A DNA stretch of 64,000 nt from Terrabacter aerolatus (GTDB lineage Bacteria; Actinomycetota; Actinomycetes; Actinomycetales; Dermatophilaceae). The notes beneath the pieces were generated by a model, which was given only the letters and a program-made list of their open reading frames with translations, searched no databases and was not told the origin of the DNA. A program made the position numbers and the translations under genes. Of the stretch, positions 98 through 64,000 are shown in pieces. The DNA lies in the NCBI RefSeq assembly GCF_007991735.1, contig NZ_BJYX01000001.1, positions 124,001 to 188,000 on the forward strand, in the 5' to 3' direction. Every line of letters begins with the position of its first letter. Position 1 is the first letter of the stretch.

Positions 98-592
98 GTG
101 AAACCACTGACAGAGAACGAGATTCGCGCTTCGTTCGTCAACACCTCCCGACGTGAGGCCAAGCAGGCGAACCTCCCGGACCTCGACCGCATCGGCGACC
201 GCTGGGAGACGCTCGACTTCCTCGGCTGGGTCGACCGCAGCAACGCCCAGCGTGCGTATGCCGTGGTGCCCGTCGACGACGAGCCCGTCGGCCTGCTGCT
301 GCGCACCTCGGAGCGCACGCGCAAGGCCAGCACGATGTGCGCGTGGTGCGAGGACGTCTTCGCCACGACCGAGGTGTCGCTCTTCGTCGCCAAGCGCGCC
401 GGCGCCGCAGGCCGCGAGGGCAACAGCCTCGGCACGCTCGTGCACGCCGATTTCAGCTGCTCGGCCCACGTCCGGCGCCTGCCCAACGGCATGGAGGGCG
501 GGCTCGACCCGCTCGCTCTCGTCGAGCGCCGGGTCGAGGAGCTGCGCGCCCGGTCATCCGCGTTCGCCCGGCGCGTGCGCGACGGGTCCTGA
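98..592 (+). CDS. FBP-domain (FusB-like treble-clef) protein
   Basis: A 164-residue protein that resembles the FBP C-terminal treble-clef zinc-finger family (PF16571), named after proteins that bind elongation factor G on the ribosome. Visible zinc ligands are C81 and C84 (CAWC) and C121 and H124 (CSAH). The start is GTG, supported by an AGGAAAG ribosome site 4 bases upstream. Family members related to FusB can relieve fusidic-acid stalling, but many actinobacterial FBP proteins are uncharacterised, so a role in translation is inferred. It stands alone on the plus strand, convergent with the flagellar sigma gene. The 97 bases before it show no recognisable gene. Confidence 0.8.
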   Translation: MKPLTENEIRASFVNTSRREAKQANLPDLDRIGDRWETLDFLGWVDRSNAQRAYAVVPVDDEPVGLLLRTSERTRKASTMCAWCEDVFATTEVSLFVAKRAGAAGREGNSLGTLVHADFSCSAHVRRLPNGMEGGLDPLALVERRVEELRARSSAFARRVRDGS

Positions 593-694
593 CCCGTTCG
601 CCGGCAGGTCCGGGCCGAGCCGCCCCACCTGACGGTGCGTCGGTGACGCGTCAGTCGGCGCCGGCCCGGCCCGTGACGCTGTTGCGGGTCGGGC

Positions 695-1549
695 TCAGCC
701 CGCGGCCTCGAGAGACGGGGACCCGTGGGTGCGGCGGACTCCCCCACCGGCCAGTGCCCGCTGCTGCCGGAAGCCCTGGACGGCCTCGCCGACGCTCTCG
801 AGGTAGGCCGCGCGACGCGGCGTGACGGGCAGGGCGTGGCCGGCCTCGGCCGGCACGCACCGCAGCGGGTCGGGCTCGTCGGCGAAGTGGGTCTCGAGTC
901 CGGCCCGCATGAGCCGCAAGGCCTCCCCGCGCTGCTGCGACACGGCCGACGACGTGAGGCCGAGCTCGGCCGCCACGTCCTTGACCGCGCGACCCTCGAG
1001 GTAGATCTCCGTGACGATGAAGCGGAGCCGGTCGGGCAGGGCCGCGACGGCTGCCCCGAGGTGCTGGACCCGCTCCCGCTCGAGAGCTGCGTCCTCCGGG
1101 GCGACGGTCTCGGCGGCGAGCGCCTCGGCGGCTGCATCGAGCGGCCCGACCACCCGCGCGGCGTCGGCGAGACCGTCCCGCACCTGCTCGGACGTCACAC
1201 CGAGCGCCGACGCCATCTCCTCGTGCGACGGGGCGCGACCGAGCCGGGCGGCCAGCGTCTCGGACATGGCCTGCATCGACTTGATCCGCTGGCGGGTCCC
1301 GCGCCCGGCCCAGTCGAGCGAGCGCAGCTCGTCGAGCAGGGCCCCGCTGACGCGGCGGCGGGCATACGCCCCGAAGGGCACCCCGGCCGAGGGGTCGAAG
1401 GCGTCGGCGGCGAGAACGAGGCCGACGGCACCCACCGAGGCGAGGTCCTCGCGCGAGAGATGGGTGGCTCGCGCGCACAGCTCGGAGACCAGGTAGCCGA
1501 CGAGCGGGAGGTTGTCGACGACGAGACGGTTGCGTTCCGCTGCTTGCAC
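695..1549 (-). CDS. FliA/WhiG-type flagellar RNA polymerase sigma factor
   Basis: A 284-residue sigma-70 family protein of the FliA/WhiG (sigma-28) type that should direct core RNA polymerase to flagellar promoters. Region 2 begins near the N-terminus (NRLVVDNLPLVGYLV, then LASVGAVGLVLAADAFDPS and GVPFGAYARRRVSGALLDEL). Region 3 carries SLDWAGRGTRQ, and region 4 contains the helix-turn-helix VAAELGLTSSAVSQQ. I chose the GTG at 1549 because AAGGGG lies 4 bases upstream and region 2 starts at once; the open frame continues further upstream without family similarity. It is the last gene of the flagellar locus, separated from csrA by 178 bases, so it may have its own promoter. The five sigma-28-like promoters in this window are its natural targets. 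No anti-sigma factor FlgM is visible. Confidence 0.88.
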   Translation of the reverse strand: MQAAERNRLVVDNLPLVGYLVSELCARATHLSREDLASVGAVGLVLAADAFDPSAGVPFGAYARRRVSGALLDELRSLDWAGRGTRQRIKSMQAMSETLAARLGRAPSHEEMASALGVTSEQVRDGLADAARVVGPLDAAAEALAAETVAPEDAALERERVQHLGAAVAALPDRLRFIVTEIYLEGRAVKDVAAELGLTSSAVSQQRGEALRLMRAGLETHFADEPDPLRCVPAEAGHALPVTPRRAAYLESVGEAVQGFRQQRALAGGGVRRTHGSPSLEAAG

Positions 1550-1597
1550 TGGACCCCTTGGACGAGCGCACCGACCATGCGCGAGATGGGTCGCGCA

Positions 1598-2063: not shown

Positions 2064-3005
2064 TCAGAGCACCGTCCGTGGCGCGGGCATCCCGTCCAGC
2101 CAGCCTAGGGGAAGGCCGAGCCCGTTCACCGTGTGCGCCGTCCGCGAGTCGCCGGCTCCGACGACCGCGAGCGCGTCGACGTGCAGGACCTCCCGCACCG
2201 TCGCCACCCAGTCGAAGGTCTCGTCCGCCTTGTGCCGGGCGTCGACGACGAGCCACACCTGGTCGGGGCCGAGCACGCCCACCTCGTCGAGGTGGGGCAG
2301 TCCCGTCGTCGGGGAACCGAGGCCGTATGCCGTCACGACCGTCGCGTGGGCCTCCACCGCCAGGGCTCGGGCCTCGGCGGCGTCCCACCGGCTCGCGAGC
2401 CGCGGGCCACCGGGTCGCGCGGCCGCTCCCCCTCCGTGGCGGGCGATGCTGCGACCGCTGCGCTCGAGCGCGGCGGCCATCGAGTCGGTGACCGGCCACG
2501 CCGAGTCGCCGAGGCCGAGGACGAGCACGAGGTCTCCCGGTGCGTCGAGCAGCGCCGGGACCGCGGCACCGGACGCGTGGGCCGTGCGTGCGGGGTCGTC
2601 GTGGTCCCCACGGTCGACACCGAGCCGGGACAGCAGCTCGGACAGGCTGTCCGACTCGGTGGAGACCGTGGCGACGGCGCCGATGGGGGCGGACGGGATC
2701 GCACCCGGCTCGGCCGAGGTGGCGTTGACGTCGTCCTCGGCACGGTCGGCACTGTCCAGCAGCGCGAGCAGCCCCGTCCGGTCACCGAGCACGTGCACGC
2801 CCGGTCGGCGCGTCGTGACGGGCACGTACGTGTCGGGCACCTCCACCATGACCTCGAGGTGGCGACGACCGAGGAAGCCCGCGACACCGGGGTCGAGGAC
2901 CCGCTCGGCGCGCACGATGCGTGCACCGGCCCCGTAGAGGGCGGTCGCCTCCCGGGCCAGCTCGTCGAGGCTGCGCCCCTCAAGCAGGTACTGCTGCACC
3001 GACAC
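2064..3005 (-). CDS. FlhF-like protein with degenerate GTPase motifs
   Basis: A 313-residue protein in the position where flhF follows flhA in many flagellar operons. Its first 40 residues (YLLEGRSLDELAREA, ARIVRAERV) resemble the FlhF N-terminus, and its end (GLGLPLGWLDGMPAP) resembles the FlhF segment after the guanine-binding loop. Where FlhF has a GxxGxGKTT P-loop this protein has LVLGLGDSAWPVTDS, with no lysine-threonine, and I find no DTAG or TKxD motif. It is therefore probably a catalytically dead relative that may have kept a placement or scaffolding role. The GTG at 3005 overlaps the flhA stop by 26 bases, implying coupling. A separate hypothetical family is the alternative. Confidence 0.6.
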   Translation of the reverse strand: MSVQQYLLEGRSLDELAREATALYGAGARIVRAERVLDPGVAGFLGRRHLEVMVEVPDTYVPVTTRRPGVHVLGDRTGLLALLDSADRAEDDVNATSAEPGAIPSAPIGAVATVSTESDSLSELLSRLGVDRGDHDDPARTAHASGAAVPALLDAPGDLVLVLGLGDSAWPVTDSMAAALERSGRSIARHGGGAAARPGGPRLASRWDAAEARALAVEAHATVVTAYGLGSPTTGLPHLDEVGVLGPDQVWLVVDARHKADETFDWVATVREVLHVDALAVVGAGDSRTAHTVNGLGLPLGWLDGMPAPRTVL

Positions 3006-5025
3006 GCACCACCCCGACGGTCTCGATGGTGACCTCGGCCGACGTCACCTCGGAGTACGACAGGACCGGGACCCCGCGCGGCGGCGCCGGCACGAGCTTG
3101 CGCAGGGCCGGCCGGAGCACCGGGGCGCACACGAGGACCGCCGACCGGCCCGAGGCCTCGGCCGCCGCGACGGCCGAGCTGAGCGAGGTCATGACGGCGT
3201 CCAGACGCGTCGGGTCCACGACGAGCTGGGTGCCGCCCTCGGCGGGGCGCAGGTCCTGGACGAGCCCCTGCTCCAGGGTCGGCTCGATCGTGATGACGGC
3301 GAGGTGGCCGTGGTCGGCGAACCTCGCCACGAGCGCCGGCCCCAGCCCGGCGCGCGCCGCCTCGACGAGCGACTCGGCGTCCGCCCCGGCCTTGGCCCGC
3401 AACGTCAGCGCCTCGTAGATCCGGGTCAGGTCGTTGATGGGGACCTGCTCGGCGAGCAGGCCCTGGAGCACCCGGTGCACCTCGGCGAGCGAGAGCAGCG
3501 ACGGCGTCAGCTCGTCGACCGTCGCGGGGCTGACGGCGCGGACCCCCTCGGTCAGCACCCGCACGTCCTCGCGGGACAGGAGCCGGGACGCGTTGGCGCT
3601 CACCACCGACGACAGGTGCGTGACGAGCACGCTCACCCGGTCGATGAGGGTCGCGCCCGTCAGCTCGGCGCTGTGGCGCAGCTCCGCCGGGATCCACTTG
3701 CCCGCGAGCCCGAAGACGGGCTCGATGACGGCAGCACCCGGCAGCGCGTCGAGCGACTCCCCGAGCGCGAGGAGGCGCCCGGGCGGCGCCATGCCGCGGC
3801 CGGCCTCCACGCCCGCGACGCGGACGGCATACGTCGACGGTGGGAGGTCGACGCTGTCCCGGGTGCGGACCGGCGGGATGACGATGCCGAGGTCCATGGC
3901 CACGGTGTGGCGCAGCGCCTTGACGCGGCCGAGGAGGTCGTCCGGCGACCCCCCGACGAGGTCGACGAGGTCTGCGGCGAGCAGGATCTCGAGCGGCTGG
4001 ACGCGCATCTTCTCGATGATCGCCTCGTTCGGGTCGACGGGAGCGCCCTCGGCGTCGACGCCCTCGCCACCGGCGGACGCGCCCGCCGCGGCCGCCGGCC
4101 GGACCCGTCGGGAGGCGAGCACGAGGAGGCCACCGACCCCGAGGAAGGGCAGCGCCGGCATACCGGGCAGCAGAGCCATGACGATGGACGCGCACCCGGC
4201 CACGAGCAGGGCCGTCCTCGACTGGGAGAGCTGGACCGACGCGGTGCGACCGAGGTCGGCCTCGGCGTTGGAGCGGGTGACGATCATGCCCGTCGAGACC
4301 GCCATGAGCAGCGCCGGGATCTGCGTCACGAGACCGTCACCCACGGTGAGGAGCGTGTACGTGTTGACGGCGTCGGTCAGCGACAGGCCGCGCTGCACCA
4401 TCCCGACCGCGATGCCGCCGACGACGTTGACGAGGATGATGACGATGCCAGCGATCGCGTCGCCCTTGACGAACTTCGACGCGCCGTCCATGGCGCCGTA
4501 GAAGTCCGCCTCGGCCGCCACGTCGGCACGGCGCTCGCGCGCGACGACGTCGGTGATGAGCCCGGCGTTGAGGTCGGCGTCGATGGCCATCTGCTTGCCC
4601 GGCATGGCGTCGAGCGTGAACCGCGCTCCCACCTCGGCGACCCGCTCGGCGCCCTTGGTGACGACGACGAACTGGATGACGACGAGGATCACGAAGACGA
4701 CGGCGCCGATGATGAGCGAGCCACCGACCGTCACCGTGCCGAAGGCCTCGATGACGTGGCCGGCGAAGCCCTGGCCGAGGACCAGGCGCGTCGAGGCGAC
4801 GTTGAGGCCGAGTCGGAAGAGCGTCGCGACGAGCAGCAACGACGGGAAGACCGAGAAGTCGAGCGGTCTCGTCACGAACATCGCCGTCAGCAGGATGACG
4901 AGGGCCAGCGCGATGTTGCAGACGATGAGCACGTCGAGCAGCGCCGCCGGCACCGGGACGACGAGCAGCAGGACGATGCCGACGATGCCGTGCGGCACGG
5001 CCAGACGGGCGAGGTCACGGTTCAC
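2980..5025 (-). CDS. flhA: Flagellar export gate protein FlhA
   Basis: FlhA forms the nonameric ring of the flagellar type III export gate: an integral membrane half (about residues 8-320, eight hydrophobic segments) and a cytosolic half that docks export chaperones. The family signature LLVATLFRLGLNVASTRLVL and the FHIPEP loop region (GARFTLDAMPGKQMAIDADL) are both present. The GTG at 5025 follows AGGAGG with good spacing and gives 681 residues, normal for the family; a longer open frame upstream is only a shadow over flhB. It overlaps flhB by 4 bases (GTGA) and the FlhF-like gene by 26. Confidence 0.97.
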   Translation of the reverse strand: MNRDLARLAVPHGIVGIVLLLVVPVPAALLDVLIVCNIALALVILLTAMFVTRPLDFSVFPSLLLVATLFRLGLNVASTRLVLGQGFAGHVIEAFGTVTVGGSLIIGAVVFVILVVIQFVVVTKGAERVAEVGARFTLDAMPGKQMAIDADLNAGLITDVVARERRADVAAEADFYGAMDGASKFVKGDAIAGIVIILVNVVGGIAVGMVQRGLSLTDAVNTYTLLTVGDGLVTQIPALLMAVSTGMIVTRSNAEADLGRTASVQLSQSRTALLVAGCASIVMALLPGMPALPFLGVGGLLVLASRRVRPAAAAGASAGGEGVDAEGAPVDPNEAIIEKMRVQPLEILLAADLVDLVGGSPDDLLGRVKALRHTVAMDLGIVIPPVRTRDSVDLPPSTYAVRVAGVEAGRGMAPPGRLLALGESLDALPGAAVIEPVFGLAGKWIPAELRHSAELTGATLIDRVSVLVTHLSSVVSANASRLLSREDVRVLTEGVRAVSPATVDELTPSLLSLAEVHRVLQGLLAEQVPINDLTRIYEALTLRAKAGADAESLVEAARAGLGPALVARFADHGHLAVITIEPTLEQGLVQDLRPAEGGTQLVVDPTRLDAVMTSLSSAVAAAEASGRSAVLVCAPVLRPALRKLVPAPPRGVPVLSYSEVTSAEVTIETVGVVRVGAAVPA

Positions 5026-6182
5026 GAGGACCCTCCTGGGTGGGACGTGGATGACGACGTGGGTGATGACACGGGTGACGGGGACGAGGAGGCGGCGCCC
5101 CGGGCCGGCCGCTGGGGGACGGTGTGCACACCGGCCGCAGACCCCCGGGCCCGCAGCGCCATGACGAAGGCGAGCACGCCCGCCACGGGCGTGTAGAGGT
5201 CGACCGGGATCTCCTGGCCGATCTCGCAGCCCGCGTGCAGCGCCCGGGCCAGCGGCACGTCGCGGACCATCGGGACCCCCTTGTCCTCGGCCTCGGCGCG
5301 GATGCGGGTGGCGATGGTGCCGGCGCCCTTGGCCACGACCCGCGGGGCGGCCTTGCCGGGCTCGTACGTCAGCGCGACTGCGACGTGGGTCGGGTTGACG
5401 AGGACGACGTCCGCACCGGCTACGGCCGAGATCATCCGGTTGCGCGACATCGACAGCTGGCGCGAGCGGCGGTGCTGGCGCAGCAGCGGGTCGCCCTCGC
5501 TCGTCTTGTGCTCGTCCTTGACCTCGCGCTTGGTCATGCGGGTGCGACCACGGTTGCGGCGCATGACGACCGCGACGTCGGCCACGGCGAGGACGACGCC
5601 CGCGGCGACGGCGAAGCGCAGCAGCGAGGCGGCGCCGTCTCCGGTCTCGGCGATGAGACCCGACACCGGCAGCCCACCCGCCGACAGGAGCACCGGCACG
5701 AGGTCCTGGACGACCATCCACAGCACGACCCCGACCACCGCCGTCTTGACCAGCGCCTTGACGCCGCCCCAGAGCGCCTGCTTGCCGAACACCCGCCCGA
5801 CGCCCTTGACGAGGTCGAAGTGCTCGAAGGACGGGGCGAAGCGCTTCACGTGCAGGCCGCCCTGCAGCACCGACCCACCGACGACACCGACGAAGACGGC
5901 CGACACGAGCGGCAGCAGCGTCCACCCGATCGACCCCAGCCCCTCCCCGAGGGCGGCGACGGCACGGCCCGGGTCCGGGTCCGCGGTCACCGACCGCAGC
6001 GTCATGAGCTGGCTCGCGCTCGCGTCGGCCCCCCGCGAGATCGTCACCGGGATCATGACCGCCCCCAGACCGACCGCGAGCCACGCGGTGAGGTCCTGCG
6101 ACTTCGACAGCTGGCCCTTGGAGCGGACCTCCTTCATCCGCTTGTCGGTGGCCTGCTCGGTGCGCTCGCCGGCATCTGACAT
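5022..6182 (-). CDS. flhB: Flagellar export switch protein FlhB
   Basis: FlhB is the substrate-specificity switch of the export gate. Of its 386 residues the first 220 hold four hydrophobic segments and the cytosolic part carries the self-cleavage motif NPTH at residues 263-266, between N263 and P264. The N-terminus (ERTEQATDKRMKEVRSKGQ) is typical. The C-terminal ~40 residues are Ser/Pro-rich and probably disordered. The start ATG overlaps the fliR stop (ATGA) and the stop overlaps the flhA GTG. FlhB works with FliK, encoded at 14288, to change export from hook to filament substrates. Confidence 0.96.
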   Translation of the reverse strand: MSDAGERTEQATDKRMKEVRSKGQLSKSQDLTAWLAVGLGAVMIPVTISRGADASASQLMTLRSVTADPDPGRAVAALGEGLGSIGWTLLPLVSAVFVGVVGGSVLQGGLHVKRFAPSFEHFDLVKGVGRVFGKQALWGGVKALVKTAVVGVVLWMVVQDLVPVLLSAGGLPVSGLIAETGDGAASLLRFAVAAGVVLAVADVAVVMRRNRGRTRMTKREVKDEHKTSEGDPLLRQHRRSRQLSMSRNRMISAVAGADVVLVNPTHVAVALTYEPGKAAPRVVAKGAGTIATRIRAEAEDKGVPMVRDVPLARALHAGCEIGQEIPVDLYTPVAGVLAFVMALRARGSAAGVHTVPQRPARGAASSSPSPVSSPTSSSTSHPGGSS

Positions 6183-6940
6183 CAGGCCACCCCCAGCAGC
6201 AGCCGGGCCGCGTCGTGGGCCAGGGCCGACACGACGCGGGGCAGGGCGAGGAACATGAAGCCGGACAGACCGAGGGTGATGAGGATCTTGAGCGGGAAAC
6301 CGAGCTGGAAGGCGTTGAGGGCCGGGGCGACCCGCGTCAGCAGCCCGAGGCCGACGTCCGCGAGGAAGAGGACCGCCATGAGCGGCCCGGCGATCTGGAC
6401 CGCTGCGACGAACATGCCGCTGACGCCGGAGACCATCACCTCCACCGGGCGCGACAGGTCGATCCCGCCGCCGAGCGGGAGCGGTCCCACCGTCCCGGTG
6501 AGGCCGCTGATGACGAGCTGGTAGCCGTCCGTGCTGAAGAGCAGGGCGAGGGCCGCCATCTGGGTCAGGCGCGTGAACTGCGCCCCGTTGACCATGCTCT
6601 GCGGGTCGTAGGCCTGGGCGAGCTGGAAGCCCCCGGAGAGGTCGATGAGCGAGCCCGCCGACTGCACCGCCGCGAAGACGAGGTAGACGAGGAAGCCGAG
6701 CGCCAGACCGGTCAGCAGCTCGAGGACGAGACCCGTCACGAAGGCGGCGTCGCCGTGGCCCGTCCACGACGCGCCCGCCCGGCTCGAGACCGCGACGCCG
6801 AGACCGACCCCGAGCATCGCCTTGATGCGGGCCGGGAACGCGTTGTGCGAGAAGGGCGGTGCGACGAAGAGGAATGCCGTCATCCGCACGATCGCGAGCA
6901 GCGTGGCCTCGGCCCAGGCCTGGTCGATGGGGATCGTCAT
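6182..6940 (-). CDS. fliR: Flagellar export gate protein FliR
   Basis: A 252-residue integral membrane protein with about six hydrophobic segments and the conserved FliR segment RIKAMLGVGLGVAVSS after the first two. FliR assembles with FliP and FliQ into the helical core of the export channel. The order fliP-fliQ-fliR-flhB-flhA is kept, with only 5 bases between fliQ and fliR and a 1-base ATGA overlap with flhB, so the gate components should be made in a coupled way. No feature looks degraded. Confidence 0.94.
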   Translation of the reverse strand: MTIPIDQAWAEATLLAIVRMTAFLFVAPPFSHNAFPARIKAMLGVGLGVAVSSRAGASWTGHGDAAFVTGLVLELLTGLALGFLVYLVFAAVQSAGSLIDLSGGFQLAQAYDPQSMVNGAQFTRLTQMAALALLFSTDGYQLVISGLTGTVGPLPLGGGIDLSRPVEVMVSGVSGMFVAAVQIAGPLMAVLFLADVGLGLLTRVAPALNAFQLGFPLKILITLGLSGFMFLALPRVVSALAHDAARLLLGVA

Positions 6941-6945
6941 CGGGG

Positions 6946-7221
6946 TCAGGCCACGCCGAGCAGGCTCGGGATCCGGGCGAAGAGGTCCTGCGTGAACGAC
7001 ACCATCTCGGCGATCATCCAGTGGCCCGAGACGGCCAGCGCGATGGCGACCGCGACGGCCTTGGGCACGAACGAGAGGGTCACCTCCTGCAGCTGGGTGA
7101 TGGACTGCACGAGCGAGACGGCGAGGCCGACGACGAGAGCCGTGATGAGGACGGGCGCCGACAGCTTCGCGGCGGCTGCCAGGGCCTGGACGCAGATGTC
7201 GAGCACGGCGGAGGCGTTCAC
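6946..7221 (-). CDS. fliQ: Flagellar export gate protein FliQ
   Basis: A 91-residue two-helix membrane protein, the usual size of FliQ, four copies of which surround the FliP-FliR core. The conserved stretch LVVGLAVSLVQSITQLQEVT is characteristic, and the second hydrophobic segment begins VPKAVAVAIALAVSG. The start is GTG at 7221, overlapping the fliP stop as GTGA. It sits directly between fliP and fliR. Confidence 0.95.
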   Translation of the reverse strand: MNASAVLDICVQALAAAAKLSAPVLITALVVGLAVSLVQSITQLQEVTLSFVPKAVAVAIALAVSGHWMIAEMVSFTQDLFARIPSLLGVA

Positions 7222-8192
7222 GTCACCCCGCCGTAGCTCTGGACGAGCGCCGTGATGATGAGGCCCCAGCCGTCGACGAGGATGAAGAGCAGCACCTTGA
7301 ACGGCAGCGACACCATGACCGGCGGCAGCATCATCATGCCCATCGACATCAGCGCCGACGACACGACGATGTCGATGACGAGGAACGGGATGAAGATGAC
7401 GAAGCCGATGATGAAGGCCGCCCGCAGCTCGGAGATCATGAAGGCCGGCACGAGCGTCTGCAGGGGCGTCGACGCCGGCGTCGCCGGGTTGGCGATGCCG
7501 GCGGCCCGCGTCATCAGGGCGATGTCCTCCTGGCGCGTGTGCGCGAGCATGAAGGTCGACAGCGGCTTGGCGCCCGCGGTGACAGCCGCGCCGAAGTCGA
7601 GGTGCCCGGCGAGGTAGGGCTGCACCGCGTGCACGTTCACCTGGGTCAGCACCGGCCACATGATGAAGAGCGTCAGGAAGAGGGTCAGGCCGGCGAGCAC
7701 CTGGTTCGGCGGGACGGACCCGAGCCCCAGGGCGTTCCGCGTCATGGCGAGGACGACGAAGATCTTCGTGAACGACGTCATCATGAGCAGCAGGGCCGGC
7801 GCCACGGACAGCAGCCCGATGCCGATGAGCGTCACGACCGCCGACGACGGCGCCTTGTCGGGGGTGTTGATCTGCAGGTCGATCCCGGAGCTCGACGCGC
7901 CCGGCTTCTTCACGCCGGTCGAGGGGTTCGGGCTCGGCGTCGGCTCGGCCGGCAGCATCGGGCGAACCGAGCCCACCGAGCCCACCGAGCCCACCGAGCC
8001 CACCGAGCCCACCGACACGGCTGCCCGCATCGAGCCGGCCGGTTCTGCTGCGTGGCCCGGCGACGCCACGACCGTGAGCAGGACGCAGGCCACGACCCAG
8101 GCCAGGGCGGCGAGGCACAGCACTCGACGCATACGGAAGGGGGCGTGCCCCACGACGGTGCCCTCGGGGGACGCGATGAGCGGGGAGGTCAC
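7218..8192 (-). CDS. fliP: Flagellar export gate protein FliP with minisatellite-encoded N-terminal region
   Basis: FliP is the pentameric export channel subunit. From about residue 90 the family core is clear: TSFTKIFVVLAMTRNALG, then the loop with FMLAHTRQEDIALM and PAFMISELRAAFIIGF. Ahead of it lie a hydrophobic signal-like helix (MRRVLCLAALAW onward) and a region of repeated Ser-Val-Gly encoded by 9-bp tandem repeats. I chose GTG 8192 because it overlaps the fliO stop as GTGA like its neighbours; an internal ATG at 8132 directly before the signal helix is the alternative. FliP proteins often carry a cleaved signal sequence. Confidence 0.93.
   Translation of the reverse strand: MTSPLIASPEGTVVGHAPFRMRRVLCLAALAWVVACVLLTVVASPGHAAEPAGSMRAAVSVGSVGSVGSVGSVGSVRPMLPAEPTPSPNPSTGVKKPGASSSGIDLQINTPDKAPSSAVVTLIGIGLLSVAPALLLMMTSFTKIFVVLAMTRNALGLGSVPPNQVLAGLTLFLTLFIMWPVLTQVNVHAVQPYLAGHLDFGAAVTAGAKPLSTFMLAHTRQEDIALMTRAAGIANPATPASTPLQTLVPAFMISELRAAFIIGFVIFIPFLVIDIVVSSALMSMGMMMLPPVMVSLPFKVLLFILVDGWGLIITALVQSYGGVT
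7966..8010. repeat. 9-bp tandem repeat within fliP (5 copies)
   Basis: Five consecutive exact copies of ACCGAGCCC, followed by a partial sixth. On the coding strand they read as Ser-Val-Gly units near the FliP N-terminus. The unit length is a multiple of three, so copy-number change would lengthen the protein without a frameshift. Confidence 0.95.
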
Positions 8193-8749
8193 GACCGTCG
8201 ACCGGACCTCAGGGCCTGGGCCGCGAGGCGCCACGTGGCGGGCTCGAGGACGGACCCGGCCGGCTGGGCCGTCGCCTGCTGCGCGGTCTCCCGGCGCAGC
8301 TCCGCCTCGAACGACGCCTGACGGGCGGCCGCCCGGGTCGCGGGAGCACCCTCCTCCCCCGCACCGCTGGGCGCGAGGGTGGGCTCCGTGTCGTCCGCGA
8401 CGGCGTCGTGGGTCGGGTCCGGCTCGGGGACAGCCAGCCCAACGAGGTCAGCGGCACTCGTCCGCGCGGGCGTCACCGACGGGGCGGCCGGCACCTCGGG
8501 CGTCGGGGCCTCGGACGTGTGCAGCACGCTGATGCCGTGCTCGGTCACCCCGAGCAGGAAGCGCCGGCCGTCGGTGTCGACGACCACGACGGACGCCTTG
8601 GGCCCGACGTTCTGCCGGGCGACGACACTCAGCACCCGCGCCCGCAGGCCGGGGTTGCCGGCCCGCAGCCGGCGCTGGAGCAGCCACATGAGGCCGAACA
8701 CCGCGCCGAGCGAGACGATGACCCGCAGGCCCAGGACGAGCGAGTCCAT
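8189..8749 (-). CDS. fliO: Flagellar biosynthetic protein FliO
   Basis: A 186-residue protein with one N-terminal membrane helix (residues ~5-25) followed by a basic patch and a FliO-type beta-rich domain (LSVVARQNVGPKASVVVVDTDG, then LGVTEHGISVLH). The second half is acidic and Ala/Pro-rich and probably disordered. FliO helps assemble the FliP ring and then leaves. It lies in the usual position between fliN and fliP, directly adjoining the fliN stop and overlapping fliP by 4 bases. Confidence 0.88.
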   Translation of the reverse strand: MDSLVLGLRVIVSLGAVFGLMWLLQRRLRAGNPGLRARVLSVVARQNVGPKASVVVVDTDGRRFLLGVTEHGISVLHTSEAPTPEVPAAPSVTPARTSAADLVGLAVPEPDPTHDAVADDTEPTLAPSGAGEEGAPATRAAARQASFEAELRRETAQQATAQPAGSVLEPATWRLAAQALRSGRRS

Positions 8750-9463
8750 TCAGGGCCGGGCCTCGGCGGTGTCGAGGATCCGTGAGATCCGGACGGCGTA
8801 GTCCTGGTCGACGACGACGACCTCGCCGAGCGCGATCCGGCGTCCGTTGAGCAGGATGTCGACCGGAGCACCGGCCGACCGGTCGAGCTCGACGACGGTG
8901 CCCGGCTCCATCGACAGCGCGTCGCGCACGCTCATCCGCGTCCGGCCGATCTCGACGGTCAGGGCCATCTCGACGTCCTGGATCCGGCGAAGGCGTCCGT
9001 CGAAGGCGGTCTCGCCACCGGCCGGCGCCGCGGACGTGGCCGGCGCGCCGTGACGGATCGCGAGCCAGCCGAACGGAGCCCCACCGCCGGAGATCTCGAA
9101 GACCGCGCTCACCTCGGGGTCGGCGAGCAGGCCGCCCGGGTCGCCCGACACGAGCTCGGACAGGACCCCCTCGCCCAGAGCGACGGCCGCAGCCTCGAAC
9201 GCGGGGCGCAGCACGGCGGGGACGGACGCCGCCGGTCCGCCACCGGCGACCGCGACGAACGTGGTGTCGAGGACGACGAGCACGAGCTCGGCCGGACGCG
9301 GCCCGACGAGCGAGGCCGACACGACGGCAGGTGCGGCGGGACCACCTGCGTCCGCGAGGGCCTCCGGCCCGACCTGGGCGACCTGACCGGCGACGGCCAG
9401 ACCGGGGACGGGCAGCGACGCGACGAGGCGCTCGGCGACGGAGCTGAGGTTTGCGGTGCTCAC
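8750..9463 (-). CDS. fliN: Flagellar motor switch protein FliN
   Basis: A 237-residue switch protein of the C-ring. The C-terminal ~75 residues are the SpoA domain (VEMALTVEIGRTRMSVRDAL, LDRSAGAPVDILLNGRRIA, VRISRIL). The longer N-terminal part (residues 1-150) resembles the CheC/FliY-like extension of Gram-positive FliN/FliY, so this may be a FliY-type protein; the ExxxN phosphatase motifs are not obvious to me. The GTG at 9463 overlaps the fliM stop by 4 bases. It pairs with FliM and FliG to set rotation direction. Confidence 0.92.
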   Translation of the reverse strand: MSTANLSSVAERLVASLPVPGLAVAGQVAQVGPEALADAGGPAAPAVVSASLVGPRPAELVLVVLDTTFVAVAGGGPAASVPAVLRPAFEAAAVALGEGVLSELVSGDPGGLLADPEVSAVFEISGGGAPFGWLAIRHGAPATSAAPAGGETAFDGRLRRIQDVEMALTVEIGRTRMSVRDALSMEPGTVVELDRSAGAPVDILLNGRRIALGEVVVVDQDYAVRISRILDTAEARP

Positions 9464-10413
9464 GGACGGTTCTCCTGGGTCGGTGCGGGGGCGTCGGGGG
9501 TGACCGGAGCCGGGTCCGCGCCCCGCGCCGGCGGGACGAGCGAGACGATGCGGGCCGCGGCACGCGTGCCGGTGCGCACGACCATCGCCCGGGCGAGGTC
9601 CTCGCCGCCGACCGTGACGACGAACGGGTCGTGGGCGTGGTGCGGCAGGGTCAGCGTGTCGCCGACGGCGAGCGACAGCACCTGATCGGGGGTCACCGCG
9701 ACGGGCGCCAGGCGAACGGCCACCTCCATGGGCACCTGCGCCACCTGCTCGCGGGTCAGCTGGGCGGCGTTGTCGCTGCTGGCGACCGGGTTGACGGCGC
9801 CGAGCTGCGGCAGGAGCGTGTCGGCGGGGATGGCGAAGGTCACCGACGAGGCTGTCTCCCCGACCTGGAGGGCGCACGTCACGACGACCATGAGGTCTGA
9901 GGTGGCAGCGGCCTGCGCGAACTGCGAGTTGTGCTGGATCGACTCGACGCTCGGCTCCGCCGGCAGGAGCGGCCCCAGGGAGTAGGCGAGCACGTCGAGG
10001 GCCTCCTCGACGAGGGCCTTGACGAGGGCGTGCTCGATCGGCGTCAGCTTGCGCTCGAGCCCCACCTTGTCGGAGCTGCCGCCGAGCATGCGCGCCACCC
10101 AGCCGAGGGCCGCCGGCGTCGGGAACTGGACGACCATCTTCGCGGGCGTGTCACCGAGGACGCAGCGCACCATGCAGGTCACGGTCGGCAGCGACGCGAC
10201 GTACTCGTCGTAGGTCTGGACGATGACCGACTCGGTCGTGGCGGTCGACTTGGTGCGCACCTTCGCGGTCAGCTGGGTGCCCCACTGGCGGGCGAACGAG
10301 TCGAAGGCGGCCTCGAGGATGCGGCTGTGCTCGCGGGCGAGCGTCGTGGGACGCCGGAAGTCGTACGCCTCCACGGCGAGCTCCGCGGTCGCCCCGACGT
10401 CGTGCACAGTCAC
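9460..10413 (-). CDS. fliM: Flagellar motor switch protein FliM (possibly leaderless)
   Basis: FliM is the middle layer of the C-ring. The core motif YDFRRPTTLAREHSRILE appears near residue 20, followed by the CheC-like central domain (MLGGSSDKVGLERKLTPIE) and a C-terminal SpoA domain (MEVAVRLAPVAVTPDQVLSL). The EIDALL-type CheY-binding peptide of enterobacterial FliM is absent. The longest frame begins at GTG 10422, but a sigma-28-like -10 element occupies 10423-10429, so transcription probably starts close to the next in-frame GTG at 10413. I use that start; the message may be leaderless. The product is 317 residues. Confidence 0.9.
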   Translation of the reverse strand: MTVHDVGATAELAVEAYDFRRPTTLAREHSRILEAAFDSFARQWGTQLTAKVRTKSTATTESVIVQTYDEYVASLPTVTCMVRCVLGDTPAKMVVQFPTPAALGWVARMLGGSSDKVGLERKLTPIEHALVKALVEEALDVLAYSLGPLLPAEPSVESIQHNSQFAQAAATSDLMVVVTCALQVGETASSVTFAIPADTLLPQLGAVNPVASSDNAAQLTREQVAQVPMEVAVRLAPVAVTPDQVLSLAVGDTLTLPHHAHDPFVVTVGGEDLARAMVVRTGTRAAARIVSLVPPARGADPAPVTPDAPAPTQENRP

Positions 10414-10422
10414 GAACGGCAC

Positions 10423-10450
10423 TATCGGCAGGGCGGCCGGTCACGTAAGG
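10423..10450 (-). promoter_or_regulatory. Sigma-28-type promoter of fliM
   Basis: On the minus strand CCTTACG (10444-10450), 14 bases, then GCCGATA (10423-10429). Spacing and elements match the other four flagellar promoters here. The transcription start predicted 6-11 bases past the -10 falls almost on the GTG at 10413. Confidence 0.8.
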
Positions 10451-10469
10451 GTGTCCGGACGCCCGCGCC

Positions 10470-10517
10470 GAGGTGCTCGCGGAGGTGCTTGACGAGGTGC
10501 TCGACGAGGTGCGCTCG
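10470..10517. repeat. 12-bp tandem repeat between motB and fliM
   Basis: Four imperfect copies of GAGGTGCTCGAC at 10470, 10482, 10494 and 10506, in the 135-base gap where many flagellar operons carry fliL. No convincing gene is present in this gap. The repeats lie upstream of the fliM promoter. Confidence 0.8.
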
Positions 10518-10548
10518 GAGGGGCGCGCCGGGGTGCAGCGGCGTCGGG

Positions 10549-12149: not shown

Positions 12150-12158
12150 GGGGTGTCC

Positions 12159-54900: not shown

Positions 54901-55509
54901 TCAGCTCAGTCCGGCTGCGATCCGGTCGAAGGCCTGGTCGATGTTGCGCTCGAGGCGACCGGCGCCGCCGTTCTGCTGGTGCTCGATGCACGCGCGCACG
55001 GCCGCGATGGCGAGGGCCACCGTGAGGCGCGGCTCCAGCGAGGCCCCGGGCAGCACGCCGAGACGGCGCTCGAGGGCCGCCGTCAGGGCGTTCTCGATGC
55101 GGATGTTGTTGCCGACGAGGGCGGGCGCGAGCGAGGGCTCGCCGAGCAGGATGCGCCGGCGCTTGGCGCGCAGGTCGCGGTCGACCGAGGTGGGCGCGAG
55201 CATGCCGGCGAGGATCCGCCGGAGGGACGCGAGCGGCGACTCGCCCTCGACGGGCGCCTCCAGCGACGCGGCATACGCCTCGAGCTCCTCGGCCGTCGTG
55301 CCGATGACGGCGGCCTCCTTCGAGGGGAAGTAGTTGAAGAAGGTGCGGGCGCTGACGCCGGCCCGGGCGGCGATCTCCTCGGTCGTCACGGCGGCGTAGC
55401 TCTTCTCCTCGACGAGGTCGAGGGCGGCGAGGTTGAGGGCGCGCCGGGTCTCCCGCTTCTTGCGCTCACGCAGGCCGCACGCCTCGTCGGTCAGCTGGTC
55501 CGTGCTCAT
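54901..55509 (-). CDS. TetR family transcriptional regulator
   Basis: A 202-residue repressor. The DNA-binding domain occupies residues ~20-65 (TRRALNLAALDLVEEKSYAA, VTTEEIAARAGVSARTFFNY, FPSKEAAVIG). The C-terminal half is a TetR_C-like ligand domain, diverged. It is divergent from the DHA2 exporter at 55584, with overlapping palindromes between them, the common arrangement for a drug-responsive repressor. Confidence 0.93.
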   Translation of the reverse strand: MSTDQLTDEACGLRERKKRETRRALNLAALDLVEEKSYAAVTTEEIAARAGVSARTFFNYFPSKEAAVIGTTAEELEAYAASLEAPVEGESPLASLRRILAGMLAPTSVDRDLRAKRRRILLGEPSLAPALVGNNIRIENALTAALERRLGVLPGASLEPRLTVALAIAAVRACIEHQQNGGAGRLERNIDQAFDRIAAGLS

Positions 55510-55538: not shown

Positions 55539-57719
<2,181 letters not shown>

Positions 57720-57810: not shown

Positions 57811-57825
57811 GCCACCCGGCATACG
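57811..57825. repeat. Single copy of the 15-mer, reverse orientation
   Basis: GCCACCCGGCATACG is the complement of the 15-mer seen at 30044 and 46907. It sits 9 bases before the SDR start codon, where it could overlap the promoter or ribosome-site region. Confidence 0.85.
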
Positions 57826-57833: not shown

Positions 57834-58655
57834 ATGACCAAAGTAGCCCTCGTCACCGGCGCGTCCTCCGGCATCGGCGAGTCCATCGCCGCCCACCTCG
57901 TCGAGTCCGGGTGGACGGTGTATGCCGTGGCCCGCCGGGTCGAGCGCATGGCCGCGCTCGAGGCCCGGGGCGTCATCCCGTTCGCCATGGACGTCACCGA
58001 CGACGCGTCGATGGTCGCCGGCATCGACCGCATCATCACCGAGCAGGGCCAGATCGACGCCCTCGTCAACAACGCCGGCTACGGCTCCTACGGACCCGTG
58101 GAGCACGTGCCGATCGACGAGGCGCGCCGGCAGTTCGAGGTCAACGTGTTCGGCCTGGCGCGGCTCACCCAGCTCGTCACGCCGCACATGCGCACCCGAC
58201 GCCGCGGACGGATCGTCAACATCTCCAGCATCGGCGGCAAGATCTACGAACCGCTGGGCGCGTGGTACCACGCCACGAAGTTCGCGGTCGAGGGCCTGAG
58301 CGACAGCCTGCGCATCGAGCTGGCGCCGTTCGGCATCGAGGTCGTCATCGTCGAGCCCGGTCCGATCATCTCCGAGTGGAACACCATCGCCCGCGAGAGC
58401 ATGGTCGAGCGGTCGGTCGGGACCGCCTACGAGCACCTGGCCCGCCGAATGGCCGTGATGTTCGAGCGCGTGGACACGCCCCGGATGAGCTCAGGGCCGG
58501 AGGCCGTCGCCGAGAAGGTCCTCAAGGCCCTCGAGTCCGCCAACCCGGCGGCCCGCTACCCCGCTGGCAAGGGAGCCCGGGCCATCGTCACGGCCCGCAA
58601 GATCCTGCCGGACCGAGCCATGGACCTGCTCATCCACCAGGCCTTCAAGGGCTGA
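57834..58655 (+). CDS. Short-chain dehydrogenase/reductase
   Basis: A 273-residue classical SDR. The NAD(P) motif is TGASSGIG (residues 8-15), NNAG at 79-82, and the catalytic residues are S131 or S132, Y145 and K149 (YHATK). The R33-R34 pair after beta-2 suggests NADPH. The substrate is not readable. Its last 11 bases overlap the convergent LysR gene. Confidence 0.92.
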   Translation: MTKVALVTGASSGIGESIAAHLVESGWTVYAVARRVERMAALEARGVIPFAMDVTDDASMVAGIDRIITEQGQIDALVNNAGYGSYGPVEHVPIDEARRQFEVNVFGLARLTQLVTPHMRTRRRGRIVNISSIGGKIYEPLGAWYHATKFAVEGLSDSLRIELAPFGIEVVIVEPGPIISEWNTIARESMVERSVGTAYEHLARRMAVMFERVDTPRMSSGPEAVAEKVLKALESANPAARYPAGKGARAIVTARKILPDRAMDLLIHQAFKG

Positions 58656-60878: not shown

Positions 60879-62324
60879 TCAGCCCCAGACGAGGGCCTGG
60901 GCCGGGTCGGCCAGGATCGCGGCCAGGTCGGACAGGAAGCGGCTGCCGAGCTCGCCGTCGATGAGCCGGTGGTCGAAGCTGACCGCGAGCTGCGTGACGT
61001 GGCGGATCGCGATCTCGTCGTTGCCGTCGGCGTCGGTGACGACCCACGGCTGCTTGCGGATCGCACCGAAGCAGACGATCGCCGACTCACCCGGGTTGAT
61101 GATCGGGGTGCCGCTGTCGACGCCGAAGACGCCGACGTTGGTGATCGTCATCGTGCCGCCCGACATCTCGGCGGGCTGGGTGCGGCCCTCACGAGCCGTC
61201 GCCGTCAGCGCTCCGATGGCCTGCGCCAGCTCGAGCATCGTCATGGCGTGGGCGTCCTTGATGTTCGGGACGATCAGGCCACGCGGGGTCGCCGCGGCGA
61301 TGCCGAGGTTGACGTAGTTCTTCTGGACGATCTCCTGGTTGGCCTCGTCCCACGTCGCGTTCATGCCCGGGTTGCGCCGGACCGCGAGGACGAGCGCCTT
61401 GGCGAGCACGAGCAGCGGCGTGACCTTGACGTCCGTGAACTCGCGGCTGCCCTTGAGGCGGTCGACGAGCTCCATGGTCTTCGTGACGTCGATGGTGATC
61501 CACTCGGTGACGTGCGGCGCCGTGAAGGCCGAGCCGACCATCGCCTGCGCCGTCATCTTGCGGACGCCCTTGATCGGGATGCGCTCTTCGCGCTCCCCCG
61601 CCCCGAACGGCGTGCGGTATGCCGTGGGCGTCGTGATGCCGGCCGAGTCGCCTTGCACTGCAGCGCCGTTCACGGCCGACCCGGTGGCGTGGTTGGTGAC
61701 GTCGTCGCGGGTGATGATGCCGTCGGCGCCGGACGCGGTGACCGCGGCGAGGTCGATGCCGAGATCCTTGGCCAGCTTGCGCACGGGAGGCTTCGCCTTG
61801 GGTCGCCCGCCGACCGCTCCGGTGGAGGGCGCGACGGCTGTCGGGGACTCGACGCGGGCGGCCGGAGCCGACGGCTCGACGACCGGAGCGGCAGCAGCGA
61901 CCTGCTCGGTCTCGGTCGGGGCGGCAGCCACGGGAGCGGAGGCCATGCCCTTGCGGGCCCGACGCGCGGTGGCGCCGGCCTTGGCGCCGTAGCCGACGAG
62001 GATCGCCTCGGAGGCACCCTCGGACGGAGCGGCCTTCTCGCCCGGGATCGACGGGGCGGCCGCAGGTGCGTCGTCGCCGCCGAGGCCGTCGTCGATCGAG
62101 ATGATCGGCGTGCCGACGTCGATGGTCTGGCCGACCTCGACGAGCAGCTCCTTGACGGTGCCGGCCCACGGGATGGGCAGCTCGACGAGCGACTTGGCGG
62201 TCTCGATCTCGAGGACCATGTCGTTGACCTTGACGGTGTCGCCGGGCGAGACCTTCCACTCCACGATCTCGGCCTCGACGAGACCCTCACCGGGGTCGGG
62301 CAGGTTGAACGTCTTGATTGCCAT
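60879..62324 (-). CDS. 2-oxoacid dehydrogenase E2 acyltransferase
   Basis: A 481-residue dihydrolipoamide acyltransferase. One lipoyl domain at residues ~3-78 has the lipoyl lysine K44 (EIETAKSLVELP); an E3-binding domain lies near 172-210 (VRKLAKDLGIDLAAVTASGA); the catalytic domain ends with FDHRLIDGELGSRF, H452 and D456 active. It transfers the acyl group from E1 to CoA. The alpha-beta E1 next to it suggests branched-chain or similar 2-oxoacids rather than the homodimeric pyruvate E1 of actinobacteria. E3 is not in the window. Confidence 0.92.
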   Translation of the reverse strand: MAIKTFNLPDPGEGLVEAEIVEWKVSPGDTVKVNDMVLEIETAKSLVELPIPWAGTVKELLVEVGQTIDVGTPIISIDDGLGGDDAPAAAPSIPGEKAAPSEGASEAILVGYGAKAGATARRARKGMASAPVAAAPTETEQVAAAAPVVEPSAPAARVESPTAVAPSTGAVGGRPKAKPPVRKLAKDLGIDLAAVTASGADGIITRDDVTNHATGSAVNGAAVQGDSAGITTPTAYRTPFGAGEREERIPIKGVRKMTAQAMVGSAFTAPHVTEWITIDVTKTMELVDRLKGSREFTDVKVTPLLVLAKALVLAVRRNPGMNATWDEANQEIVQKNYVNLGIAAATPRGLIVPNIKDAHAMTMLELAQAIGALTATAREGRTQPAEMSGGTMTITNVGVFGVDSGTPIINPGESAIVCFGAIRKQPWVVTDADGNDEIAIRHVTQLAVSFDHRLIDGELGSRFLSDLAAILADPAQALVWG

Positions 62325-62339
62325 GTGTCGCAGCCCTTC

Positions 62340-63335
62340 TCAGTACGCGAGCGCGCGGTCGACGCCGTCGAGGATGCGGTCGAGGTCGGGGAGGAACTCC
62401 TCCTCCATCCGACTCGGCGGATACGGGATGTTGGCGCCGCCCACGCGGATGACCGGCGCCTCGAGCTCGTAGAAGCACTGCTCGGTGACCTGCGCGGAGA
62501 TCTCCGACGCCATGCCGAGGAAGCTGCTCGCCTCGTGGACGACGACGAGCCGGCCGGTCTTGCGCACCGACGCGACGATGGTGTCGATGGGCAGCGGCGA
62601 GAGCGAGCGGAGGTCGATGACCTCGATGCTCGTGCCCTCCGCCTCGGCGGCGGCGGCCGACTCGAGCATCGTCTTGACGACGGGCCCGTAGCCGACGAGC
62701 GTGACGTCGGTGCCCTGACGGATCACGTTGGCCTCGAAGAGCCCCCGCGGCGACGACGACGCGGCCGTGTCGTACTCGGCGCGGTCGTGGTAGCGACGCT
62801 TGGGCTCGAAGAAGATCACCGGGTCGTCGCACGCGACGGCCTGCTGGATCATCCAGTGAGCGTCCTCGGGGTTGCTGCACGCGACGACGCGCAGGCCCGC
62901 GGTGTGGGCGAAGTAGGCCTCGGGGCTCTCGGAGTGGTGCTCCGGGCTGCCGATGCCACCGCCGAACGGGATGCGGATGACCATCGGGATCTTGACGGCG
63001 CCGAGAGCACGAGCGTGCATCTTGGCGACCTGGCTGACGATCTGGTCGAAGGCCGGATAGACGAACCCGTCGAACTGGATCTCGCAGACGGGGCGGTAGC
63101 CGCGCAGCGCCATGCCGACCGCCGTACCGACGATGCCGGACTCGGCGAGCGGGCTGTCGATGACGCGGTCCTCGCCGAAGTCCTTCTGGAGGCCCTCGGT
63201 GATGCGGAAGACGCCACCGAGCTTGCCGATGTCCTCACCGATGAGCACGACCTTCGGGTCGGCCTCCATGGCCTTGCGCAGGCCGTTGGTGATGCTCTTG
63301 CCGAGGGTGACCTTCTCGAGCTGCTGACCGGCCAT
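62340..63335 (-). CDS. 2-oxoacid dehydrogenase E1 beta subunit
   Basis: A 331-residue transketolase-like beta subunit. Typical stretches are VVLIGEDIGKLGGVFRITEG, DSPLAESGIVGTAVGMALRG and IPFGGGIGSPEHHSESPEAY. It forms a heterotetramer with the alpha subunit, jointly binding thiamine diphosphate. The ATG at 63335 overlaps the alpha stop by one base, and 15 bases separate it from the E2 gene. The branched-chain and pyruvate types cannot be told apart by inspection. Confidence 0.92.
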   Translation of the reverse strand: MAGQQLEKVTLGKSITNGLRKAMEADPKVVLIGEDIGKLGGVFRITEGLQKDFGEDRVIDSPLAESGIVGTAVGMALRGYRPVCEIQFDGFVYPAFDQIVSQVAKMHARALGAVKIPMVIRIPFGGGIGSPEHHSESPEAYFAHTAGLRVVACSNPEDAHWMIQQAVACDDPVIFFEPKRRYHDRAEYDTAASSSPRGLFEANVIRQGTDVTLVGYGPVVKTMLESAAAAEAEGTSIEVIDLRSLSPLPIDTIVASVRKTGRLVVVHEASSFLGMASEISAQVTEQCFYELEAPVIRVGGANIPYPPSRMEEEFLPDLDRILDGVDRALAY

Positions 63336-64000
63336 CAGTTCGCCTCCTCGAAGCTCGCCTTGTAGGCGAGGTAGGCGGCACGCTCCGCCTCCATGACGGG
63401 GTGGTCCTCGGCGTAGACGTGGTCCCACATCGTCTCGCCGGGCATCGTCGCCATCGTGACGCAGCCCTCGCGCAGCTCGGCCGCGAACTGGTCGGCCTCC
63501 TCGTCGATCTGCGTGAAGAAGGCCTCGTCGGCCATCCCCTCATGGGCGAGGAGCGTCTTGAGGCGCAGGATCGGGTCGCGGAACTTCCACTCCTCGACCT
63601 CGGCCGAGACGCGGTACTTCGTCGGGTCGTCAGCGGTCGTGTGCGCACCCATGCGGTAGGTGTAGGCCTCGATGAGCAGCGGGCCGTTGCCGTTGCGCGC
63701 CTCGTCCAGGCAGTGCTGCGTCACGGCATACGTCGCAAGGATGTCGTTGCCGTCGACGCGGACACCCGGGAAGCCGAAGCCGCGGGCACGCTGGAAGAGC
63801 GGGATGCGGGTCTGCTTCTCGACGGGCTCGGAGATGGCCCACTGGTTGTTCTGGCAGAAGAAGACGACGGGCGCGTCGAAGCTCGCCGCGTAGACAAAGG
63901 CCTCGTTGACGTCGCCCTGCGAGGAGGCGCCGTCACCGAAGTAGCAGATGACCGCGGTGTCGCGGTCGGGGTCGCCGGTGCCGACGTTGCCGTCCATGCG
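63335..64000 (-). CDS. 2-oxoacid dehydrogenase E1 alpha subunit (5' part outside the window)
   Basis: The C-terminal 221 residues of E1 alpha; the gene starts beyond the right edge. The thiamine-diphosphate motif is present as CYFGDGASSQGDVNEAF followed by FFCQNNQWAISEPV, and the phosphorylation-loop-like region reads EAYTYRMGAHTTADDPTKYR. It leads the E1alpha-E1beta-E2 operon, with a one-base overlap to the beta gene. Truncation is by the window edge, not by mutation. Confidence 0.93.
   Translation of the reverse strand, partial: RMDGNVGTGDPDRDTAVICYFGDGASSQGDVNEAFVYAASFDAPVVFFCQNNQWAISEPVEKQTRIPLFQRARGFGFPGVRVDGNDILATYAVTQHCLDEARNGNGPLLIEAYTYRMGAHTTADDPTKYRVSAEVEEWKFRDPILRLKTLLAHEGMADEAFFTQIDEEADQFAAELREGCVTMATMPGETMWDHVYAEDHPVMEAERAAYLAYKASFEEAN

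Follow-up and report, generated by a model that had tools for sequence, protein, structure and literature searches.

An Octamer of Terrabacter aerolatus and Its Relatives, Spaced by Orientation: A Candidate DNA-Uptake Word

A stretch of 64,000 nucleotides from Terrabacter aerolatus (contig 1, NZ_BJYX01000001.1, positions 124001-188000; called the window below) contains 29 copies of the octamer GTATGCCG or its complement CGGCATAC, a word that is abundant throughout the host genome and in many related genera. Copies of this octamer that share an orientation are mutually depleted up to a distance of about 1.5 kb and are evenly spread, and we report this same-orientation exclusion as a new observation. 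In our judgement, the chances are evenly divided that CGTATGCCGT, which contains GTATGCCG as its core, is a DNA-uptake or self-recognition word for natural transformation, and that it would be read strand-specifically. We do not place this reading lower because of the inverted pairs at gene ends, the density of the word between genes, its turnover between sister species, and a host genome without RecC. The word is uptake-like in its composition, placement, and turnover and behaves like a Chi site in its directionality; either reading involves recognition of a single strand or in one direction.

Spacing by Orientation

We analyzed the spacing of the octamer in a sample of 781 kb, consisting of the entire contig 1 and contig 2 up to 300 kb. 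Neighbouring copies alternated in orientation in 184/275 cases on contig 1 and 94/137 cases on contig 2, and none of 2000 shuffles of the orientation labels reached as high a value on either contig. The spacing between copies of the same orientation showed coefficients of variation of 0.66 and 0.68 on the two contigs, compared to 0.89 and 0.87 expected by chance. Among 1678 8-mers analyzed for alternation, the octamer yielded the highest z value (6.4, with 257/388 alternating neighbours), followed by two words that are overlapping forms of the octamer itself. Alternation was also recorded in 20 named loci of word-rich genera (157/237) and in stretches of six relatives of the same genus (108/176).

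The pair correlation at distances of 60-1500 bp amounted to 0.10-0.52 of the expectation for copies in the same orientation and to 0.76-0.98 for those in opposite orientation, with convergent and divergent pairs being about equally frequent beyond hairpin distance. In absolute numbers, we counted 59 same and 142 opposite pairs over this range, while a gene-aware null model, which keeps the strand of each gene and the bias of the genic copies towards the sense orientation (205/286), predicted 105.8 same pairs (standard deviation 7.1) and gave as low a value in 0 of 2000 runs. Outside the genus, 18 word-rich loci of other genera, chosen by leaving out Terrabacter, Terracoccus, and copy-poor loci, contained 47 same versus 89 opposite pairs at 60-1000 bp and 39 versus 43 at 1000-1500 bp. 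Because opposite copies are tolerated and same-orientation copies are excluded within about 1.5 kb, we infer a reader of the octamer that either recognizes a single strand or moves unidirectionally.

Reading in one orientation is also a property of Chi sites, and for the octamer it is implied by the spacing. A Chi-like signal, the main rival reading, which we consider possible but less likely than the uptake word, would be read on one strand by a helicase-nuclease moving in from a DNA break, which would then stop degrading and start recombination; such sites would be required at intervals, independently for each direction of travel. This explanation predicts redundancy of copies in the same orientation, independence of opposite ones, and equal numbers of convergent and divergent pairs beyond hairpin distance, and the length of eight nucleotides and the sharpness of the exact word also fit Chi. 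Against it, the orientations showed no long-range skew, with 134/142 copies on the 482 kb contig and 77/61 on the 300 kb one, while the Chi sites of E. coli are skewed in orientation. The preliminary description of the window had proposed an analysis of strand bias relative to origin and terminus; the absence of skew applies along these two contigs, which are not placed relative to either. A polar segregation signal resembling FtsK-orienting polar sequences (KOPS) or FtsK recognition sequences (FRS) was rejected because the required replichore skew is missing on both contigs.

Enrichment and Sequence of the Word

All 29 positions listed in the preliminary description proved to be exact copies (13 on the plus and 16 on the minus strand), and the window contains no further ones. 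A second-order Markov model predicts 1.0 copy, so the originally estimated fourteen-fold excess over two expected copies is fair for the window, given 29 copies against an expectation between 1.0 and that two. Almost all heptamers TATGCCG/CGGCATA in the window belong to the octamer (29/30). In the whole genome (4,420,518 bp, 62 contigs), we counted 1072 + 1091 = 2163 copies, equivalent to one per 2.0 kb, compared to 90 + 105 = 195 copies of the word read backwards, which also served as a control for the other genome counts; the balance of orientations described for the window is therefore found genome-wide.

Genes were predicted with our own script rather than a published gene caller. In the coding parts of the 781 kb sample, 287 octamers faced 23.0 after shuffling synonymous codons inside each gene, so within this sample the excess persisted under a codon-aware comparison, of the kind that the preliminary description had named as a refuting check on the genome-wide count. 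The intergenic DNA contained 119 octamers, where a second-order model of this DNA predicts 2.7, and the octamer ranked first among all 8-mers by the combined score of both null models. It also ranked first by codon shuffling alone in a coding sample of 369 kb (182 versus 14.2). The word is sharply defined: in 464 kb, 257 copies were present versus 12.1 expected from a third-order model, while its 24 one-mismatch neighbours were divided into 12 above and 12 below expectation, the strongest of them, CGGCATAG, being enriched 3.2-fold (11 versus 3.4). Because the intergenic copies are flanked by C in 86/121 and by T in 76/121 cases, the preferred form is CGTATGCCGT. A short, non-palindromic word strongly over-represented on both strands corresponds to the DNA uptake sequences (DUS) and uptake signal sequences (USS) of other bacteria.

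Ordinary codon or composition bias, re-use of terminators, or contamination by adapters might be invoked for such a word, given that a Tyr-Ala sense frame accounts for 186/286 genic copies and that CGTATGCCGT presumably matches a small-RNA sequencing adapter; CGTATGCCGT or its complement is widespread in the literature, including papers that are unrelated by their titles. We regard this explanation as refuted and its remaining probability as negligible, since the codon shuffle, the intergenic null model, and the conservation described below exclude bias, and since the continuation of the adapter is absent from the 781 kb.

Placement Relative to Genes

The 781 kb contain 414 copies, of which 286 are genic, 121 intergenic, and 7 located across a gene edge, resulting in densities of 1.49 per kb between and 0.41 per kb within genes (3.6-fold). 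Gaps between convergent genes contained 2.45 copies per kb and those between divergent genes 0.81. Among the 24 pairs less than 60 bp apart, 17 were convergent (GTATGCCG...CGGCATAC), 4 divergent, and 3 in the same orientation. All but one of the convergent close pairs (16/17) were intergenic, and all 16 lay 9-201 bp from a predicted gene's 3' end; for several of these intergenic inverted pairs, the stem extends past the octamer as judged from the sequence. The close pairs in the 18 word-rich loci of other genera were distributed similarly, with 8 convergent, 2 divergent, and no same-orientation pairs. Over-representation between genes, partly as inverted pairs, is another property of DUS and USS. 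Counting close inverted pairs of all words in word-poor genomes mostly recovered GC-rich background.

The coverage of the chromosome is very even: 78 bins of 10 kb contained 5.3 sites on average with a variance of 2.85, just one bin contained fewer than two, and there was no link to GC content. This evenness would suit a site for chromosome organisation, segregation, or the binding of a nucleoid protein, which we consider unlikely in view of the orientation-specific exclusion without long-range skew, the inverted pairs at gene ends, and the different words in species of one genus. The preliminary description had left the choice between an uptake word, a recombination or repair site, and a nucleoid-protein site; the first two are favoured by the orientation-specific spacing, the enrichment between genes and at gene ends, the inverted pairs after genes, and the replacement words, and the third fits less well.

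Conservation in Relatives

We aligned the window with six genomes of the same genus, which are 83-87% identical over the aligned parts, with unaligned copies dropping out of the comparison. The octamer sites were identical in 74/100 alignments (11/12, 5/17, 14/20, 12/14, 15/17, and 17/20 for the individual relatives), while any 8-mer was identical at rates of 0.31-0.43 and 8-mers matched to the octamer in weak/strong pattern at 0.08-0.53 across the six relatives. At positions with an unchanged amino acid, TAT codons were kept or replaced in 40/9 cases inside the octamer versus 4/19 elsewhere, and GCA codons in 21/5 versus 57/168; no p-value is attached to this codon retention because the relatives are not independent of each other. 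The preliminary description was thus right about the rare TAT and GCA codons inside the word, and these codons are retained in relatives. The octamer is maintained by selection or drive.

Distribution and Replacement Words

Among the records compared, the nearest named relatives by ComEC are Terrabacter sp. Root85 (88%) and Terracoccus sp. 273MFTsu3.1 (86%). From such named relatives, we took the family to be the Dermatophilaceae of the Genome Taxonomy Database (GTDB); sampled genomes carry G numbers and named loci L numbers. At least 400 octamer copies were present in 106/186 genomes of the family, representing 30/53 genera, and the remaining genomes contained 7 to 394 copies, in many of them close to the number for the backward word and in some in between. 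None of 318 genomes from 19 other families of the order exceeded 180 copies, and none of 354 genomes from other orders of the class exceeded 386. In the samples searched, the octamer is therefore confined to one family. One genome of another order, G779 (3.8 Mb), is an isolated weak outlier with 170 copies of GTATGCCG versus 27 of the backward word, and it is the sole genome among the 354 in which the count is above 100 and also exceeds the control by a factor of more than three.

At the level of named loci, the octamer occurs in Terrabacter, Terracoccus, Intrasporangium oryzae, Humibacillus, Ornithinimicrobium, Knoellia, and Phycicoccus elongatus, and at most one copy was present in the loci of Janibacter, Phycicoccus jejuensis, Intrasporangium flavum, and Dermacoccus. 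The 20 kb available for each of Arsenicicoccus and Flexivirga suggest the use of a relaxed form, GTATGNCG. The comparison of related genera suggested in the preliminary description thus revealed the octamer in many genera of the family and other words in some relatives. The clearest of these, CGAAGGGGG, is present in 797-1939 copies in 19/19 genomes of the genera g27 and g36, in which GTATGCCG is at background, and in at most 80 copies in the other 167 genomes. Genus g27 appears to be Janibacter, and four named Janibacter loci contain 21 copies of CGAAGGGGG in total (0.33 per kb). Another word, CGTAGACC, reaches 1183 copies in genome G008 and at most 454 elsewhere, and CGTACGGCG reaches 2116 in G084 and at most 905 elsewhere, including 394-905 copies in nine other GTATGCCG-poor genomes; GTATGCCG is abundant in sister species of G008 and G084 within their genera. 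The replacement words passed both the codon-shuffle and the intergenic null models in their own genomes, and the words, which may represent dialects, are largely mutually exclusive between genomes. Their alternation is weaker or missing, with 33/50 for CGAAGGGGG, 39/65 for CGTAGACC, 67/115 for GTACGGCG, and 55/104 for CGTACGCC of G014. The word GTAGCGGC of G114 is weak, with 6 intergenic copies, and was not used. A common GTA core of all replacement words was considered and dropped, because CGAAGGGGG lacks it and the words containing CGTACG overlap into palindromes.

Copies of GTACGGCG and CGTACGCC partly overlap into palindromes, with CGCCGTACGGCG occurring 26 times in 240 kb of G084 and GGCGTACGCC 19 times in 200 kb of G014. 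As a side observation, the CGTACG palindromes of G084 (L110-L114, L218-L224) and G014 (L070-L073, L232-L237) resemble the highly iterated palindrome HIP1 of cyanobacteria more than they do a word with a direction. For the octamer itself, a HIP1-like role connected with a restriction system or a DNA methyltransferase is an improbable explanation. Cyanobacterial HIP1 is a comparably iterated octamer with a link to methyltransferases, as stated in PMC4390886, and the partial overlap of the G014 and G084 words into palindromes around CGTACG would agree with such a system; against this, neither GTATGCCG nor CGAAGGGGG is a palindrome, and methylation does not predict the exclusion of same-orientation copies.

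Recombination and Competence Genes

A Chi-like function of the octamer would need a matching enzyme. We detected no RecC (PF04257) in the host genome, and the presence of RecC in 28/60 chosen genomes of the family was unrelated to the octamer (13 with and 17 without RecC among the word-rich genomes, 15 and 14 among the word-poor ones, and the intermediate G034 without). Recognition by RecBCD was therefore rejected. AdnAB, the usual enzyme of actinobacteria, is not known to respond to Chi, and enrichment between genes and at gene ends would not be expected of Chi sites. Within the genus of the window, RecC is patchy, being present in G175 and absent from the host (G000) and G171.

The machinery for natural transformation is nearly universal in the genomes and loci examined, so we rejected the idea that these genes determine whether the word is present: ComEC was found in 76/78 and TadE in 60/60 chosen genomes of the family, and ComEA is encoded near ComEC in 31/33 named loci, with ComEC lying at the contig end in L159, one of the two exceptions. 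The machinery expected along with DUS or USS is thus present; ComEC, TadE, and ComEA show a capacity for transformation and nothing more. A type IVa pilus was rejected because its marker PilM occurs in 2/78 chosen genomes only. For another actinobacterium, Micrococcus luteus, PMC6370729 describes transformation that requires Tad/Flp pili, together with comEA and comEC genes.

A single aberrant locus was found in Janibacter massiliensis (L157, corresponding to G068 by position), where comEC (8561-11617) is interrupted, lacking its start and adjoining a serine-recombinase gene. About 28 kb off on that contig lies a weak, sub-threshold match to positions 1-30 of the domain; no ComEA was detected within the locus (20 kb). 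Both GTATGCCG (8 + 8) and CGAAGGGGG (17 + 19) are at background in this genome. The idea that competence was lost here, giving a natural knock-out, was considered and set aside, as it would be a single case.

Copies in the Window

In the following, copies are given with their strand, the predicted gene (where applicable), and the number of aligned relatives in which the octamer is identical. The intergenic copies comprise three with the full sequence CGTATGCCGT at 14647-14654 (+, 1/1), 32188-32195 (+, 3/4), and 51469-51476 (+, 5/5), others at 46908-46915 (+, 1/1) and 57817-57824 (-, 0/1), and the inverted pair at 30045-30099, whose left arm at 30045-30052 (+) is identical in 1/5 and whose right arm at 30092-30099 (-) in 4/5 relatives; its stem (GTATGCCGGGTGGC...GCCACCCGGCATAC) exceeds the word and is terminator-like by sequence.

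Copies in sense orientation are located at 256-263 (+, gene 98-592(+), 1/2), at 3825-3832 and 4156-4163 (both -, gene 2980-5025(-), no relative aligned), 19272-19279 (-, gene 18772-19377(-), 1/1), 24675-24682 (-, gene 23956-25362(-), 1/1), 34448-34455 (-, gene 33375-34763(-), 5/5), at 37803-37810 and 37857-37864 (both -, gene 36280-38115(-), 3/6 and 6/6), 47482-47489 (-, gene 47054-48253(-), 5/6), 51936-51943 (-, gene 51538-52809(-), 4/4), 53972-53979 (-, gene 52899-54362(-), 4/5), 55269-55276 (-, gene 54901-55509(-), 5/5), 56351-56358 (+, gene 55575-57719(+), 2/5), 57920-57927 (+, gene 57834-58655(+), 2/3), and 63724-63731 (-, gene 63335-64489(-), 1/1). The antisense copies are found at 2325-2332 (+, gene 2064-2999(-), no relative aligned), 24361-24368 (+, gene 23956-25362(-), 0/1), 35681-35688 (+, gene 35345-36232(-), 5/6), 39358-39365 (+, gene 39307-41325(-), 4/6), 44574-44581 (-, gene 44459-44968(+), 6/6), 45217-45224 (-, gene 45069-46733(+), 4/6), and 61617-61624 (+, gene 60879-62324(-), 0/3).

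The longest octamer-free stretch of contig 1 also lies in the window (4164-14646, 10.5 kb) and covers a flagellar operon, in which FlhA, FlhB, FliR/Q/P, FliN/M, MotA/B, FlgE, and FlgD were recognized by reading the translations. Because it sits on such an operon, a word-poor region is not necessarily foreign. Two dispersed intergenic repeat elements at 33247-33371 and 34827-34881 showed many matches on both strands in the host and sister genomes when a 12 kb query was used.

Proposed Reading and Its Significance

If CGTATGCCGT is an uptake word, its reader may engage it directionally or on a single strand during transformation via ComEA, ComEC, and the Tad pilus. A strand carrying one copy within about 1-2 kb would then be preferred for uptake, protection, or recombination, to which a further copy of equal orientation would add nothing. 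Biased exchange could spread and maintain the word by molecular drive, and a change of the reader might let a new word take over a lineage.

Several observations weigh against this proposal. The conservation is uneven, with G175 keeping just 5/17 sites, and in three of the six relatives the 8-mers matched in weak/strong pattern are conserved above the rate of any 8-mer. Competence genes also occur in word-poor genomes, so gene content does not link the word to competence. The Tad clusters of G007 and G008, which use different words, gave no clear sign of replacement (matched Tad genes were 53-83% identical) and no receptor candidate, and the comparison of their ComEA proteins was uninformative. 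The words of G014 and G084 overlap partly into palindromes and lack clear alternation, and no standout word was found in G153, which goes with the loci of Phycicoccus jejuensis, or in G183. Finally, the uptake words of H. influenzae work independently of orientation according to PMC1939737, unlike the spacing of the octamer.

With slightly more doubt than confidence, we suggest that the words CGTATGCCGT, CGAAGGGGG, CGTAGACC, and CGTACGGCG of different lineages may represent the first uptake or self-recognition word system outside the Proteobacteria, with one-strand reading and switches within a genus. Literature searches on uptake sequences in actinobacteria or Intrasporangiaceae, conducted partly by title and with most subscription papers outside their scope, revealed no such word, from which we do not claim its absence from print. 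We know of no DNA-uptake word system outside the Proteobacteria. If the proposal is true, each strand would be tagged independently every few kb, and many soil actinobacteria may be naturally transformable, which would be useful for their genetics. The several replacement words, including switches within genera, would offer natural replicates of word origin and replacement, and comparing sister species would point to the reader protein. Same-orientation exclusion itself provides a quantitative signature separating strand-specific from duplex recognition, which is applicable to Haemophilus, Neisseria, and Chi.

Comparison with Known Systems

Two proteobacterial families, the Neisseriaceae and the Pasteurellaceae, are known to exchange DNA by means of sequence tags, a process of disputed origin. 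The receptor for DUS is the sequence-specific minor pilin ComP, and ComN is predicted. The octamer resembles the DUS of Neisseriaceae, described in part in PMC1939737, PMC6370729, and PMC3630211, in being short, non-palindromic, balanced between strands, enriched between genes, arranged in inverted pairs after genes, and, if the replacement words are dialects, variable between clades. It differs in that the host belongs to a different phylum, the PilM-type pilus is missing in 76/78 genomes, the copies show same-orientation exclusion, and the replacement word CGAAGGGGG is unrelated in sequence.

With the USS of Pasteurellaceae, it shares a short, iterated, non-palindromic word, balanced strands, intergenic enrichment, inverted pairs after genes, and perhaps variants between clades. 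Even spacing has been noted for USS as well (Karlin et al., cited in PMC1939737, which itself argues that it is not very even). Some mismatched forms of USS are over-represented according to the same source, whereas the one-mismatch words of the octamer are enriched at most 3.2-fold.

The Chi sites of RecBCD and AddAB are similar to the octamer as exact words of its size with directional reading, which the spacing suggests for the octamer, and unlike it with regard to a host without RecC, a balanced orientation, and the intergenic enrichment. HIP1 of cyanobacteria is likewise eight nucleotides long, highly iterated, and limited to one clade, but it is the palindrome GCGATCGC, whereas the word of T. 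aerolatus is non-palindromic and spaced by orientation.

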